From positions 1 through 64,000 of the forward strand of contig JANQPL010000016.1 of assembly GCA_028289425.1 (NCBI GenBank): a DNA stretch of 64,000 nt, given 5' to 3'. Both the position numbers and the translations under genes were made by a program. The notes below the pieces were generated by a model. The model did no database searches. It was not told the DNA's origin and saw only the letters and a list, made by a program, of their open reading frames with translations. The stretch comes from Alphaproteobacteria bacterium. Lineage in GTDB: Bacteria; Pseudomonadota; Alphaproteobacteria; JANQMY01. Below, one piece after another: positions 7,003 to 40,561 of this stretch; the first letter of the stretch is position 1, and each line of letters starts with the position of its first letter.

Positions 7003-7191
7003 ATGACGAACGATCAGGCCGACCAAATCCTCAAAGAGCTTGAAATGCTCCGGAAGCTGAAAATGCTTGAGCTTGCTGAAAAAGGGTTTTCGCAAGCACT
7101 CTTGGCGCAAGCTTTAGGAGTGAGCCAACCGACTGTCAGCCGGATGTTCCCAAAGGGATCCGCCAAGAGTAAGGCCGCCCCCGATGAATAA
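7003..7191 (+). CDS. Small HTH protein, paralogue C
   Basis: 62 residues: helix ILKELEMLRKLKMLELAEKG and HTH FSQALLAQALGVSQPTVSRMFPKG. The ATG follows the previous TAG with no spacer. Its last codons overlap the start of the CHAT gene by 8 bases. It is the third clear copy of the tandem family. Confidence 0.75.
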   Translation: MTNDQADQILKELEMLRKLKMLELAEKGFSQALLAQALGVSQPTVSRMFPKGSAKSKAAPDE

Positions 7192-8224
7192 AAGAACATC
7201 CATTGTCAATATTTCCGGCGACCATGAGGAAACACTAATTCAGTTGGCCCGGCATCTAGGTACTAGCCAGATTCGTCGCAAGATTTTTGACACGGTTTAT
7301 GGGCCCGGTACTAGGCCTCGATCTAAAAGACAGATCATGGAGAAAGCCGGAATTTCTGATACAGGCACAAAAGCACAGCAGGTGCAGAATGAATTAGACC
7401 ACCTTTCGAAGCACCATCTCATTGTTAAGTCTGAAAACAATGGTGTGGTTGCAGACGGCAGCAGAAATCTCTACGGGAAGGATGAATCGGTCAGGGCAAA
7501 TAGAAAAAAAATTATCAGACTTGCTGACAACCCAAAGGCCGCTGACCGGATTCCTACGAAGCGCCGACCCGCGTTGGAAGGCGTAGCTCCTATCCAACGA
7601 GTTACAAAACGCGATTTGAAGAAGAAAAAGCACCTAAATGTTCTGTATCTTGCGTCAAATCCCGATCCGCAATGCTCTTTGCGCATCGATGCGGAGATTA
7701 GGTTGGTTCAACAAGCGATCAGAGGAACTGTCTACCGTGACAGCATCACAGTGCAGTACAGGCCGGCAGCTAATTTGGATTCGCTACTCGAGGGGCTAAA
7801 TGACCATCGTCCCCAAATCGTACATTTTTCCGGTCATGGCAACGAAACCGAAATTGCAACAGATAGCGGTGGAGTGGAGGATCCGGCGGTCCAATCGCTC
7901 TCGTTTGATTTGTTAGCAAAGGCATTGTCTGCAACCGACAGCCCCCCCGAAATAGTTGTGCTGAATTCATGCAAGAGTTCAGCTGCAAAGAAACACCTTC
8001 TGCCAGTTGCGAAGGTCATCATTACCATGCGGGAATCAATTTCCGATGTGGCTGCGGCTGCTTTCGCCCCCCGCTTTTACGCAGCCTTGGCAAGTGGGCA
8101 ACCGGTGCAGAAAGCCTTTGCGCAGGGTCAGGTGGCCGTTGCAGCCGCCTCTATCAGCGAAGCAAACACACCTGAACTTCATTGCGCAGCCGGTATAAAC
8201 CCAGCCAAGGTCATCCTCACGTAG
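7184..8224 (+). CDS. CHAT-domain (caspase-like) protease with N-terminal winged helix
   Basis: 346 residues. Residues 15-95 look like a winged helix (RRKIFDTVYGP, RSKRQIMEKAGISDTGTK, VQNELDHLSKHHLIV). A basic linker (residues 125-150) leads to a CHAT domain from about 150: LNVLYLASNPDP, then IVHFSGHGNE with the expected catalytic His at 218, then VVLNSCKSS with the expected nucleophile Cys at 263, and the late AFAQGQ helix seen in CHAT proteins. Both catalytic positions are intact, so it is probably an active cysteine protease. CHAT proteases act as effectors in several bacterial immune and cell-death systems. It is the last gene of the overlapping run, so dose and activity are probably tied to the small HTH proteins. 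Confidence 0.85.
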   Translation: MNKRTSIVNISGDHEETLIQLARHLGTSQIRRKIFDTVYGPGTRPRSKRQIMEKAGISDTGTKAQQVQNELDHLSKHHLIVKSENNGVVADGSRNLYGKDESVRANRKKIIRLADNPKAADRIPTKRRPALEGVAPIQRVTKRDLKKKKHLNVLYLASNPDPQCSLRIDAEIRLVQQAIRGTVYRDSITVQYRPAANLDSLLEGLNDHRPQIVHFSGHGNETEIATDSGGVEDPAVQSLSFDLLAKALSATDSPPEIVVLNSCKSSAAKKHLLPVAKVIITMRESISDVAAAAFAPRFYAALASGQPVQKAFAQGQVAVAAASISEANTPELHCAAGINPAKVILT

Positions 8225-8480: not shown

Positions 8481-9720
8481 TTTATACCGGAGACATAGGT
8501 AACACTTTTCGGCCTTTGCGAGGAGAGCAAGGTGCCGTGGAAGGAGTGTTGTCCTATGGACGAGAAGCTGAAGTTCGTTGCCCGCCTGCTCGACGGTGAG
8601 AAGATGGCGGGGCTCTGCCGGGAGTTCGGGATCTCCCGCAAGACCGGCTACAAGATCTTCGCCCGCTACAAGGATTGCGGGCTCGAGGGCCTCACCGACC
8701 GCTCGCGCCGGCCCTACCGGCACGCCAACCAATTGCCCTTCCAGATCGAACAGCTGATCATTCATCTCAAGCAGGACAAGCCAAGCTGGGGGGCACCGAA
8801 GATCCGGGAGCGACTACGTCGTCTCTATCCAGACGTCCAGACCCCCGCCATCAGCACCGTTCATGCGGTGCTCGACCGACATGGCTTGGTCAAGCGTCGG
8901 AAGCGCCGTCGCTACAAGGCGCAAGGCACGAGCCTGTCCAAGCCAAAAGCCCCCAATGATCTGTGGTGCACCGATTACAAAGGCGAGTTCATGCTGGCGG
9001 ACAGGCGCTATTGCTATCCGCTGACCATCTCGGATTTTGCCAGCCGCTATCTGATTGCCTGTGATGCCCTTGCCAGCACCAAGGAAGCCTATGCATTCAC
9101 TGTGTTTGAGCGCATCTTCAAGGAATTCGGCTTGCCCCAGGCCATCCGCACCGACAATGGCATTCCCTTTGCCAGCCCCAATGCGCTCTTCGGCTTGAGC
9201 AAACTCTCGGTCTGGTGGCTCAGGCTTGGCATCGACATCGAACGCATCAAGCCAGGCCATCCGCAACAGAACGGTCGACACGAGCGCATGCACCTCACTC
9301 TCAAGAAGGAAGCCACACGGCCGGCGTCGCCAAACTTCCTTCAGCAACAAGCCCGCTTCGACGATTTTATCGAGGAATACAACAAAGAACGGCCCCACCA
9401 GGCCCTCAATATGGACACTCCCGCCGAGCGCTACACACCCTCAACACGGCCCTATCGTGGACTGCCCGATCTCGACTATCCGTTCCATGACAAAACCATC
9501 ATCGTCACCAACTGCGGACGCATCTGTATGGGACGGCGCAAGATAAACCTGACAACTGTCCTTGCCGGTCAAAAGGTCGGCGTCAAACAGGTCGACGACC
9601 AAATCTGGCTCGTCAGTTTTATGCAACATGATCTGGGATATTTTGATGATCAAACCGGAAGACTCGAACCCATAGCCAACCCATTCGGTCCAAATGTGTT
9701 ACCCATGTCTCCGGTATAAA
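8481..9720 (+). mobile_element. IS481-family insertion sequence
   Basis: A 1240-base element bounded by 25-base inverted repeats at 8481-8505 and 9696-9720 that differ at a single position (both open TTTATACCGGAGACAT when read inwards). It holds one full-length transposase gene, so it may still be active. No target-site duplication was convincing. It lies between the CHAT operon and tRNA-Arg. Confidence 0.85.
8532..9719 (+). CDS. IS481-family DDE transposase
   Basis: 395 residues. The N-terminal HTH (AGLCREFGISRKTGYKIFARY) is followed by an integrase core with the DDE triad: DLWCTDYKGEF (Asp), IRTDNGIPF (Asp) and NGRHERMHLTLKKEA (Glu). GTG 8532 is chosen because AGGAG lies just upstream and MPWKE is a common opening in this group; ATG 8556 is an alternative. 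The stop lies within the right inverted repeat, as is usual for compact elements. No frameshift is seen. Confidence 0.9.
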   Translation: MPWKECCPMDEKLKFVARLLDGEKMAGLCREFGISRKTGYKIFARYKDCGLEGLTDRSRRPYRHANQLPFQIEQLIIHLKQDKPSWGAPKIRERLRRLYPDVQTPAISTVHAVLDRHGLVKRRKRRRYKAQGTSLSKPKAPNDLWCTDYKGEFMLADRRYCYPLTISDFASRYLIACDALASTKEAYAFTVFERIFKEFGLPQAIRTDNGIPFASPNALFGLSKLSVWWLRLGIDIERIKPGHPQQNGRHERMHLTLKKEATRPASPNFLQQQARFDDFIEEYNKERPHQALNMDTPAERYTPSTRPYRGLPDLDYPFHDKTIIVTNCGRICMGRRKINLTTVLAGQKVGVKQVDDQIWLVSFMQHDLGYFDDQTGRLEPIANPFGPNVLPMSPV

Positions 9721-10064: not shown

Positions 10065-11306
10065 ATGGCGACAACAGGGGATGGCGTTCCGCAGGCCAAA
10101 CTCAAGCGGGCCTTTACGTTGCCTTATTTGGTGTTCTATGGGCTTGGCACCACCTTGGGCGCGGGCATTTATGTGCTCATCGGCGAAGTGGTGGTGGAAG
10201 CCGGCGCGCTGGCACCGTTCGCCTTTTTGCTGTCGGCGGCGGTTGCCGGCTTCACCGCGCTGTCGTTCGCGGAGTTCAGTTCCCGCTTTCCCGAAAGCGC
10301 GGGCGAAGCGGTCTATGTGTCCGAAGGGTTTGAGGTCACCTGGCTGCCCACGCTCGTCGGTCTCATCGTCGTGGCCGCGGGCATTGTCTCCAGCGCGGCC
10401 TTGGGCCGGGGCGTCGCCGGCTATGTGGACGCCTTTGTGCTGATGCCCGACATGGTGACAGTGGTGGTGGCCGTCGTCTTGTTGGGTGGCCTTGCGGCGC
10501 TCGGCATTCAGGAATCGATCCTTGTCCTGACGGTTATGACCATTGTGGAAGCGGGCGCGCTGCTGGTGCTGATCGGTTTCGGCATTGTCGCGGATCTGCC
10601 GCCTGTGGAAGCATCGGCGCTTGCCTCCGAGGCCGGTGCCCTGGGCGGCCTGATGGGCGTTTTGGGCGGGGCGGCGCTGGCGTTTTACGCGTTCATCGGC
10701 TTCGAAGACATGGTGAATGTGGCCGAAGAAGTGCACGACCCGCGGCGCACCTTGCCCTGGGGCATCCTGATCGTCTTGGTGGTGACGGCGCTGATCTATG
10801 GGGGTGTCGCCATCATCGCGGCAGAGGCGCGGGGCGTGGTAGACTATGCGGCGGAAGGGGCGCCTCTGGCGGCGCTGTTCTCGGCGCTCAGCGGCGCGCC
10901 GCCGCAGATCCTGGCAGCCATCGGTCTGGTGGCGGTGGCCAACGGCATTCTCATCCAGATCATTATGGCATCGCGTGTGCTCTATGGGCTGGGCAAGCGG
11001 CGCCTGCTGCCGGGATTTCTCGCCACCATCAATCCGCGCACTCAAACGCCGCTTACGGCAACCGGGCTCGTCATCATTGTTGTTCTGGTGTTGGCGCTGC
11101 TGTTCAACGTGGCGACGTTGGCGCAAGTTACCTCGCTGCTCATTTTGGTGGTGTTCGCAACGGTGAACGCGGCGCTGTTGCGGGTGAAGGCTAAGCGCGG
11201 GCCGGGAGAGGCGGTGTTTCGTGTGCCCACGGCCATCCCCCTGATCGGCTGCGTCACCTCAGCGCTCTTTGCAGCCTTCAGCGCTTATGACTTATTGTTT
11301 CTGTAA
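10065..11306 (+). CDS. APC-superfamily amino acid/polyamine permease
   Basis: 413 residues with about twelve hydrophobic segments. The opening FTLPYLVFYGLGTTLGAGIYVLIGEV carries the TM1 glycine motif (G-G-I) of APC transporters, and GFEDMVNVAEEVHDPRRTLPWGI is the conserved segment after TM6. It is an inner-membrane importer or exchanger of amino acids or amines. The start ATG 10065 follows AGGGGA. It is single in its context, 21 bases before the Rieske protein gene on the same strand, so the two may be cotranscribed. The substrate cannot be assigned. Confidence 0.85.
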   Translation: MATTGDGVPQAKLKRAFTLPYLVFYGLGTTLGAGIYVLIGEVVVEAGALAPFAFLLSAAVAGFTALSFAEFSSRFPESAGEAVYVSEGFEVTWLPTLVGLIVVAAGIVSSAALGRGVAGYVDAFVLMPDMVTVVVAVVLLGGLAALGIQESILVLTVMTIVEAGALLVLIGFGIVADLPPVEASALASEAGALGGLMGVLGGAALAFYAFIGFEDMVNVAEEVHDPRRTLPWGILIVLVVTALIYGGVAIIAAEARGVVDYAAEGAPLAALFSALSGAPPQILAAIGLVAVANGILIQIIMASRVLYGLGKRRLLPGFLATINPRTQTPLTATGLVIIVVLVLALLFNVATLAQVTSLLILVVFATVNAALLRVKAKRGPGEAVFRVPTAIPLIGCVTSALFAAFSAYDLLFL

Positions 11307-11327: not shown

Positions 11328-12209
11328 ATGATATCCGACAGTCAACGCGCCATGCTTGCCGCCCGCCCCCGCACCCCGCAATTCGGCGCAACGGAGGGGC
11401 TGGTCAAAATCGGCCACTACCGCCGGGCGATGCCCGTGACCATGGCGCGCATGATGGAAAATGCGCTCGATTGGGAACATCTGCCCACGCTGCATGCCAG
11501 CAGTTTTTCGTCCATCGATCTGATCGACTCAGGCCCCTGGGGTTGGCAGGCGGAAGCGGCCGTCCCCTCCGGATCGGCCGAGGCGCCCGACCGGCTGCAA
11601 ATTATCGAGTTGCTGGTGGACACGCAGAAGCACCATTGGGTGACCACCATTTTGGGCGGCGTGGCCGAAGGCAATCAAATTCACACTCAAGCGGTTGCTC
11701 TTGGTAAGGATGAAATCGAGGTTCAGGTCGATTTTTTTGTGCCGGATACGGGCCTGACGGATGAGCAATCCCGTCAATATGGCCAGGTGATGAGCACCAT
11801 TTACGCTCAGCTGTATGACGAAGACGAAAGCATGATGGCGCGCCGCCAACAGGAAATGCAGGCCTGGGCCGCGTTTCGAAAGTCAAAAGACGGCCGCGAG
11901 GACGCGCTTGATCTCGGTCCGGTGGAGGAGGTGCGCGCCGCGCTGCCGCGTATCGTTCCTTTCAATGGCGGGCGCTTCAAACTCGATTGGCAGGACGGCG
12001 CGTTCGTTGTGTTCTCGGTCCGCTGCCCGCATATGCTGGGACCGCTCGACGACGAACCGGTGACAGATGGTGTGGTCGCCTGCCCCTGGCATGGCTACGC
12101 CTTCGATGTGGCGTCCGGCGCGTGCCGCGACCACCCGGGCCTGAAACTGGAAACGCCGCCGACAGCGGTCGTCGAAGATGGCCGTCTAAAACTTCGCGCG
12201 AGTAATTAA
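11328..12209 (+). CDS. Rieske/SRPBCC protein with reversed domain order
   Basis: 293 residues. Near the N-terminus E44-NAL-D48-WE-H51-LPTL-H56 fits exactly the E-x3-D-x2-H-x4-H iron signature of ring-hydroxylating oxygenase catalytic domains. At the C-terminus C233-P-H235 and C252-PW-H255 form a Rieske 2Fe-2S site. In standard oxygenase alpha subunits the Rieske domain comes first and the iron domain second, so this protein looks permuted. It could be an oxygenase of unknown substrate. Its last codons and stop (AGT AAT TAA) run into an intergenic repeat, so the original C-terminus may have been different. It follows the permease gene by 21 bases. Confidence 0.75.
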   Translation: MISDSQRAMLAARPRTPQFGATEGLVKIGHYRRAMPVTMARMMENALDWEHLPTLHASSFSSIDLIDSGPWGWQAEAAVPSGSAEAPDRLQIIELLVDTQKHHWVTTILGGVAEGNQIHTQAVALGKDEIEVQVDFFVPDTGLTDEQSRQYGQVMSTIYAQLYDEDESMMARRQQEMQAWAAFRKSKDGREDALDLGPVEEVRAALPRIVPFNGGRFKLDWQDGAFVVFSVRCPHMLGPLDDEPVTDGVVACPWHGYAFDVASGACRDHPGLKLETPPTAVVEDGRLKLRASN

Positions 12210-12317
12210 GGGGACACAATACTTTTAATTAAGGGGACACAATACTTAATTCAGATACGGATCACTCCAATCGCCCGTCTCCAATGTAAGTGAATTAAGT
12301 ATTGTGTCCCCTTAATT
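12204..12317. repeat. Repeat cluster with GGGGACACAATACTT units
   Basis: Two direct copies (12204-12224 and 12227-12251) and one inverted copy (12293-12317) of a unit reading AATTAAGGGGACACAATACT, the last two framing about 40 bases to make a long hairpin. Similar units accompany Y1-type (REP) transposases in many bacteria; this parallel is from memory. The first copy supplies the stop codon of the Rieske gene. On transcription the hairpin could also act as a bidirectional terminator between the convergent genes. Confidence 0.7.
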
Positions 12318-38802: not shown

Positions 38803-39123
38803 TCAGTGTTGGGATTGGGGCAGGCGCACCACCAGCCCGTCCAGTTCGTCCGACACTTCTATTTGACACGACAACCGGCTTGTTTCTTCCACGTCAACGG
38901 CGAAGTCCAGCATGGTCTGTTCCATGTCTTCTTTTGTGCCGGTTTTTTCGACCCATTCGGGATCTACATAGACGTGGCACGTCGCGCAGGCGCAGGCGCC
39001 GCCGCAATCGGCATCGATGCCGGGAATGGAATTCTTAATGGCCCCTTCCATAACGGATAGGCCGTTGGCCACGTCGATCGTGTGCTCCGTGCCGTCATGT
39101 TCAATGTATGTGATCTTAGCCAT
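38803..39123 (-). CDS. 2Fe-2S ferredoxin, adrenodoxin type
   Basis: 106 residues. Cluster cysteines lie in [11 protein letters not shown] plus the later SRLSCQ, the C-x5-C-x2-C...C pattern of vertebrate-type or putidaredoxin-like ferredoxins. It probably carries electrons from the FAD reductase encoded just upstream in the same direction (14-base gap) to an oxygenase such as a P450, none of which is encoded in the window. Confidence 0.92.
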
Positions 39124-39137
39124 AAACGCGTTCGTCC

Positions 39138-40361
39138 TTATTTCTGCATCATTTCTTTCATGGACACGGACATGTCCGCAAGGGTCGAAGGATCTATTTT
39201 GGCGGCCGCACCGACCAGCCGTTTCCCGATCATGAATTCCGGAACGGCGTTGATGGCATCCACCGCGATGATGGCGCCTTCCTTCAAGTAAAACACGGCA
39301 AACGATTTTTCATCCGGATTTCCGCGCACAACCGTCTGGTCGTGGCCGAAGGAAAGGCCGGCGATCTGCAGTTTGATGTCATACTGGTCCGACCAGAACC
39401 ATGGCACTTCGTTATAGGACTTCTTGTTGCCCAGAAGCGTGTTGGCCACGGCCTTCGCTTGGTCGATGGCGTTCTGAACGGATTCCAAACGGATGCGTCG
39501 GCCGACCAGCTCACTTGGTAGGCTTGTGCAATCGCCCGCTGCCAAAATGTCTGGGTCGGACGTTTGGGCAAACTCATCGACCACAATGCCGTCGTCGACG
39601 TCCAAACCGGCAGATTTGGCAAGTTCGTCACAGGGGAGGATGCCCACGCCGATGACAACGATGTCGGCGGGTATCGTTGTCCCATCGCCGCATTCCACGC
39701 CGGCAACATTGCCGGCTTGATCCAGGATCTTGGTAACGCCCGCGTTTACCCGCAGGTCGACGCCCGCATCTGAGTGGAGCTTCTCAAAAAAGGCAGAAAC
39801 TTCCGGCGCCACCACCCGGTTCATCACCCGGTCCGCCATTTCCACAACGGTAACTCGGGCGCCAAGCTTCAAGGCAACCGCCGCCACCTCAAGGCCGATA
39901 TAACCGCCACCGATGATGGCCATTCTCGAGCCATCCTTGAGAACACCCCGAATGCCGTCTACGTCGTCGACCGTTCGCAGGTAGAACACTTGGGGCAGGT
40001 CGGCTCCGGGAATCGGCAACTCCCGAACGCACGACCCGGTGGCCAAGATTAGCTTGTCATATTCGACGATTTCGCCGGTGGACAACGAGACGGTGTGCCC
40101 CGCGCGGTCAATCTGTTCGGCGCGCGTCTTGAGCCTCAGATCGATATCGGCGCCTGCGTAGAAGCTTTTGGGCTTCAGCTCGATGCGGTCCACATCCATC
40201 TCGCCCATGAGGTATTTCTTCGACAAAGGGGGGCGCTGGTAGGGTGCATGGGGTTCGTCCCCAATCAGCGTGATGCTGCCCTCAAATCCACCGCTGCGCA
40301 GACTTTGTGCCGCCTGTCCACCAGCCTGTCCGGCCCCAATTATGACGATTTTCTCGGCCAT
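39138..40361 (-). CDS. FAD-dependent ferredoxin reductase
   Basis: 407 residues from ATG 40361 ([15 protein letters not shown]). An FAD Rossmann motif opens the protein, and a second [17 protein letters not shown] at about residues 150-165 binds NAD(P)[14 protein letters not shown] and [10 protein letters not shown] are further flavoprotein motifs. It resembles putidaredoxin/rhodocoxin reductase and pairs with the ferredoxin gene immediately downstream. Confidence 0.92.
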
Positions 40362-40561
40362 CTTCCGTCGGTTGCCTTTGGTATTATGGAAGCGCGGTAC
40401 CATGGATCGGTCGGGTGCCGGAATCAACCCTTCCTTGAGCCGATGGCGACGCTTTGCCTCATAAACGGGCCATGTCTGTGCCGGGCAAGGAGCGGCGGTT
40501 GAGAAGCTGCTGCAGTGGCGGGGTCAATTCGATACGGTCGCCGATGGACGTATGAAAAGAG

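Follow-up and report, generated by a model that had tools for sequence, protein, structure and literature searches.

The window (the whole 64,000-nucleotide stretch of DNA that was analysed) encodes a protein that is probably a compact Rieske non-haem iron oxygenase, in which a minimal Bet v 1-type catalytic domain comes first and a ferredoxin-type Rieske [2Fe-2S] domain follows. Known Rieske oxygenases (ROs) are described with a single layout, in which the Rieske domain comes first. In their trimers, the Rieske cluster is about 45 Å from the iron in its own subunit and about 12 Å from that in the neighbouring subunit, and the trimer lets electrons cross the shorter distance (PMC12445004). The protein belongs to a bacterial family whose reversed, pared-down RO design is apparently undescribed so far; a search of 5.39 million open-access papers gave no account of circular permutation, a C-terminal Rieske domain or a reversed order in ROs. 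A conserved family with the opposite layout and a stripped catalytic domain offers a direct test of the trimer requirement. It would also reveal what the catalytic domain can do without and may provide a small scaffold for engineering. It further suggests that "Rieske domain-containing" annotations can conceal oxygenases whose catalytic half escapes most family models.

The gene (Table 1) starts with ATG and codes for 293 residues plus a stop codon. Residues 44–56 (E-N-A-L-D-W-E-H-L-P-T-L-H) contain the canonical RO signature N45-x2-D48-x2-H51-x4-H56, directly preceded by E44. The preliminary description of this DNA had reported the motif as E44-x3-D48-x2-H51-x4-H56 at the N-terminus and a Rieske motif, C-x-H...C-x2-H, at residues 233–255, and both are present. 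In ROs, the NxxD aspartate forms the bridge to the neighbouring Rieske cluster. Judging from the sequence, H51 and H56 are expected to be the two His ligands of the iron, and D48 the Asp that bridges to the Rieske cluster. A third carboxylate ligand, absent from that description, is D166 in 'YDEDESMMARRQ'; this residue is invariant in the family and is predicted by homology to complete the 2-His-1-carboxylate set. When the protein was shuffled 200,000 times, the iron motif arose in 0.021% and the Rieske motif in 0.0095% of the shuffles, and both at once in none. A chance match is ruled out by these shuffles together with the invariance of the residues across 83 homologues, the latter being the stronger argument.

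Table 1 Positions in the window of the reversed-order protein, its domains and motifs, and the neighbouring genes discussed in the text
Feature	Position	Strand	Basis
Reversed-order Rieske oxygenase-like protein	11328..12209	+	ORF, homologues, AlphaFold2 model
N-terminal iron domain (residues 25-186), minimal Bet v 1/SRPBCC fold	11400..11885	+	AlphaFold2 secondary structure, Foldseek, hhalign, VanA_C
Iron motif E44-N45-x2-D48-W-x-H51-L-x3-H56	11457..11495	+	Sequence; invariance in 83 homologues
D164-E165-D166; D166 predicted third iron ligand, helix 145-186	11817..11825	+	Invariance; RO alignment
C-terminal Rieske [2Fe-2S] domain (residues 193-290), ferredoxin-type	11904..12197	+	Pfam, profile scores, AlphaFold2, Foldseek
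Rieske ligands C233-x-H235-x16-C252-x2-H255 (C233-P-H235 ... C252-P-W-H255)	12024..12092	+	Sequence; invariance
APC-type amino-acid permease, 413 aa, 21 bp upstream	10065..11306	+	PF13520 1e-29
[2Fe-2S] plant/adrenodoxin-type ferredoxin, adjoining the reductase	38806..39123	-	PF00111 1.1e-10
Putidaredoxin-reductase-like FAD/NAD reductase, 27 kb off	39141..40403	-	Pyr_redox_2 plus Reductase_C

Relatives were collected by scanning 84,980 species genomes, which gave 158 encoding stretches, and 80 loci were kept. In the first pass, the iron motif was N-terminal and the Rieske motif C-terminal in 83 of 84 loci; the exception, L057, was recovered afterwards. The 83 full-length homologues share 32–70% identity with the query, with a mean column identity of 38%, and every one has the exchanged order. 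Thus the order given in the preliminary description, with the iron domain ahead of the Rieske domain, is upheld, and it marks a real conserved family. Homologues lacking the residues of the iron motif would, according to that description, have counted against its reading; none of the 83 lacks them. Invariant in the alignment are Y31, R33, R41, E44, N45, D48, W49, H51, L52, H56, F60, G111, Y159, L162, D164, D166, M170, R173, C233, P234, H235, C252, W254 and H255. The RO alpha signatures N-x2-D-x2-H-x4-H and C-x-H-x(15-17)-C-x2-H are therefore both kept throughout the family. The N-terminal position of the Rieske domain, which also defines RO alpha subunits, is reversed in all 83, whereas the 12 other distinct Rieske proteins compared that have a recognised iron motif are all Rieske-first.

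Members occur in Gammaproteobacteria (many of them marine bins), Alphaproteobacteria (Caulobacter among them), Myxococcota (among them Plesiocystis pacifica SIR-1) and Binatota; the labels Bacteroidota and Actinomycetota each come from a single bin, for which misbinning is possible. A frame or assembly artefact is ruled out by homologues in many independent assemblies, among them the isolate records of Plesiocystis pacifica SIR-1 and Caulobacter ginsengisoli. Some homologue ORFs (L041, L057, L061 and others) have extended N-termini, which were considered as fusions and are read as low-complexity GC-rich open frames. The window's own genome (5.4 Mb, Alphaproteobacteria) has one copy. Among 289 genomes of the class, 5 encode full-length relatives, this genome included, and among 399 genomes sampled across the phylum only 2 do. 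The family is therefore rare, though widespread. In a tree of 81 members, the window protein groups with that of a congener (L011), near those of an Erythrobacter (L027), a gammaproteobacterial bin (L053) and Plesiocystis (L032). In plasmid collections, only the Rieske half gave matches, and phage collections gave none. A stand-alone N-domain without a Rieske domain was not found in the 240 genomes searched.

The whole protein was modelled as a monomer by AlphaFold2 with 81 family sequences, with a mean pLDDT of 94.9 and a pTM of 0.87, the latter suggesting a defined arrangement of the two domains relative to each other. A strand (25–35) is followed by two helices (39–47 and 49–55), six strands (62–139) and a long helix (145–186), after which the Rieske domain begins. 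The predicted arrangement of the N-domain is the bare β-α2-β6-α Bet v 1 fold, the helix-grip. In ROs of the naphthalene-dioxygenase type, the catalytic domain is described as larger, with nine strands and several helix insertions (PMC2577659); compared with it, the N-domain is a minimal version. H51 is placed inside helix 49–55, H56 just past it and D166 on the long helix, and these positions are those matched to the RO ligands by profile alignment. In a Foldseek search with the whole model, Bet v 1, PYL and TcmN come first (E 4e-7 for Bet v 1/START proteins), and only Bet v 1-type proteins are among the best 50 matches. The kinship with ROs is thus not shown by Foldseek alone but by the sequence profiles.

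In the window protein, Pfam covers the Rieske half only, and the N-terminal half has no Pfam match. Among the 83 members taken singly, VanA_C is found in 70 (best 3.3e-6, most matches weak), Polyketide_cyc2 in 21 and Ring_hydroxyl_A in 14. The profile of the N-domain alone, run against 240 genomes of the class, recovers five family members and two canonical Rieske-first ROs, L174 (1.8e-5) and L175 (4.7e-5), and nothing else. The catalytic stretch of L174 reads 'MENSFDNAHFSYVHRSSF', against MENALDWEHLPTLHASSF in the window protein, and the third-ligand region of L174 and L175 is 'NEDRLILE'. In hhalign comparisons with canonical ROs, the halves align in exchanged order: the Rieske domain with RO residues 30–91 (4.8e-10) and the iron domain with residues 154–298 (2.9e-5). 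Adding L174 and L175 to the RO set gives an N-domain alignment of 139 columns at 3.3e-7, which runs from the first strand past HxxxxH to D166, whereas the reversed-profile control gives 0.7. ROs of the VanA/DdmC type use the aspartate of their ED motif as third iron ligand. The family segment 'LYDEDESMM' aligns to 'LNEDRLIL' of ROs, so that D166 pairs with the N/L-E-D motif and is equated with the third ligand. The end-to-end alignment with Rieske-first ROs, the VanA_C matches and the recovery of L174 and L175 identify the N-terminal half, at the level of sequence, as a true relative of the RO catalytic domain. No sequence relative of the N-domain was found among solved structures.

The Rieske domain is recognised by PF00355 in all 83 members (residues 197–273 in the window protein, 8e-12), and its separate AlphaFold2 model has a pLDDT of 96.0. 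Its hhalign profile score is highest against soluble Rieske ferredoxins (108.7, 6e-21), followed by the Rieske domains of VanA/DdmC-like ROs (81.8, 1.5e-15) and aromatic-ring RO alphas (64.7, 3e-12). An RO alpha is the best BLAST neighbour of none of 17 family Rieske domains, and the NCBIfam models that match the members are mainly those of ferredoxin-like Rieske proteins. Among solved structures, a mouse soluble Rieske ferredoxin is best by both sequence and structure; after it, RO ferredoxins and RO Rieske domains are intermixed. In a tree of 80 Rieske domains, the family stays nearly whole and outside the RO alphas, though the tree has few columns and an intruding long bc1 branch and is poorly resolved. 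By sequence profile and nearest neighbour, then, soluble Rieske ferredoxins are nearer to the C-terminal domain than RO alpha subunits are. Two other proteins with a C-terminal Rieske domain, L142 and L160 (353 and 351 aa), have a preceding region that reads as transmembrane and ferric-reductase-like; few Rieske domains are nearer to that of the family than theirs.

Three known groups share parts of this design. RO alpha subunits of the VanA/DdmC/SxtT/NdmA/KshA class (PF00355 with PF19112, PF00848 or PF19298) have the same Rieske CxH-x16-CxxH, NxxDxxHxxxxH and ED third-ligand motifs and a homologous catalytic domain, so that similar chemistry would be expected. They are, however, about 330–450 aa long against 260–295 aa in the reversed-order family, which has its domains reversed, lacks the described insertions in the catalytic domain and carries a Rieske domain of the ferredoxin type. 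Of the features defining an RO alpha subunit, it thus departs in domain order and retains the ligands and the homology. Soluble Rieske ferredoxins (CarAc, BphF, AndAb and the MocE family) are closest to the C-terminal domain by profile and NCBIfam model and share its compact fold, but they are stand-alone single-domain carriers, whereas all members here have this domain joined to a Bet v 1 domain with a predicted iron site. Bet v 1/START/SRPBCC proteins (PR-10, PYL, TcmN ARO/CYC) share the helix-grip fold but have neither RO-type iron ligands nor a Rieske domain.

A recombination that joined a minimal iron domain to a C-terminal ferredoxin is our preferred history. The RO Rieske domain itself is thought to be ferredoxin-derived, with an insertion for inter-subunit contact (PMC12445004, a review). 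Given this origin and the ferredoxin-type Rieske domain of the family, we infer that recombination is the parsimonious course. A more tentative reading, which we consider doubtful, is that the family represents an independent origin of ROs, in which a Bet v 1 iron domain gained its C-terminal ferredoxin apart from the N-terminal fusion behind all known ROs. The new linkage would then set the Rieske cluster next to the iron of its own subunit, and electrons would pass there without need of a trimer.

The preliminary description had offered either a natural circular permutation or a new enzyme type. In a true permutation, an RO alpha gene would have been duplicated and cut, so that its own Rieske domain is now C-terminal, with the trimer and inter-subunit transfer as in normal ROs. 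The homology of both halves to RO halves in exchanged order is consistent with such an event, as is the Foldseek search with the Rieske model, which mixes ferredoxins with the Rieske domains of RO alphas (KshA, CarAa). However, the Rieske domain is nearer to ferredoxins by score and by neighbour, its tree (of few columns) does not nest it in RO alphas, and the catalytic domain is free of RO insertions. An RO-like protein of reversed order is thus retained from that description, whereas the permutation, judged from these comparisons, is unlikely and less favoured than recombination.

An accessory redox protein, handing electrons to a separate oxygenase and using its N-domain for docking or sensing, would also suit a ferredoxin-type Rieske domain, and in eight loci of one clade a canonical RO alpha gene lies directly downstream. 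This neighbour is confined to that clade, however, and the invariance of the 2-His-1-carboxylate set and the bridging Asp in all 83 members is hard to explain without an iron site, which makes this role very improbable. Least credible of all is a ligand-binding protein of the Bet v 1 type that has lost the catalytic role of its iron motif and serves, for instance, as an O2, NO or redox sensor: its nearest folds are ligand carriers and Polyketide_cyc2 matches some members, but the ligand residues never vary and the homology to RO catalytic domains is colinear through the third ligand.

For the preferred reading, a compact oxygenase built by recombination, the following mechanism may be proposed. 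Electrons would pass from NAD(P)H to an FAD reductase and, perhaps through a ferredoxin, to the C-terminal Rieske cluster. From the cluster, they would reach the iron by way of a Rieske His, the conserved D48 and an iron-ligand His. The Fe(II) would be held by H51, H56 and D166 and would activate O2. The substrate to be hydroxylated would be a hydrophobic compound within the helix-grip cavity; an acid or CoA thioester of a catabolic pathway is probable. With the Rieske domain on the end of the long last helix, the canonical geometry must change or be re-created differently. Electron transfer between subunits arranged differently, as suggested in the preliminary description, is possible.

The oxygenase gene is likely co-transcribed with the permease gene upstream. 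The same pair is found in the congener L011, with a gap of 17 bp (permease PF13520 1.7e-32). In three Caulobacterales loci (L025, L036 and L039), a Pyr_redox_2 oxidoreductase gene lies directly 3' of the oxygenase gene, with a 1-bp overlap or 2 bp downstream. A marine Pseudomonadales clade has a cluster of amidohydrolase, small lipoprotein, reversed oxygenase, canonical RO alpha and ABM-domain protein genes (L013, L017, L019, L020, L021, L024, L028 and L035), in which the two kinds of Rieske oxygenase adjoin. Elsewhere, an acyl-CoA carboxylase gene is just upstream (G009 and G143), two acyl-CoA dehydrogenase genes and a nitronate monooxygenase gene are upstream (G638), and thiolase and ChsH2-type OB protein genes are nearby (L054). 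In marine Gammaproteobacteria, ileS is upstream, which is uninformative, and an enoyl-CoA hydratase gene is convergent. A P450 gene is near the gene in L023, and its homologue is in L064. No partner gene is universal across the family loci, and no reductase or pathway gene is common to all. Genes of CoA-thioester and ring catabolism nevertheless recur among the neighbours and probably point to the catabolism of CoA-linked or hydrophobic substrates.

In the window itself, the reductase may be the electron donor of the oxygenase and the adjoining ferredoxin its carrier. The two genes (38806–40403) resemble an electron chain of the P450 or RO type. The genome has 31 Rieske-domain matches, as does that of the congener, and thus belongs to an unusually oxygenase-rich alphaproteobacterium.

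Other features of the window are also observed around the gene. An IS481-type integrase/transposase gene (8556–9716) lies 350 bp upstream of the permease gene, and a further gene (7184–8224) encodes a CHAT-domain protein (caspase-like protease fold), whose N-terminal region has no Pfam identification. Just past the stop codon of the oxygenase gene, an inverted pair of AATTAAGGGGACACAATACTTAATT occupies positions 12227–12317. Allowing one mismatch at most, the element has 21 copies in the genome, mostly in inverted pairs about 60 bp apart, against none for a backwards control; it looks like a REP/BIME-type or transposase-associated palindrome.
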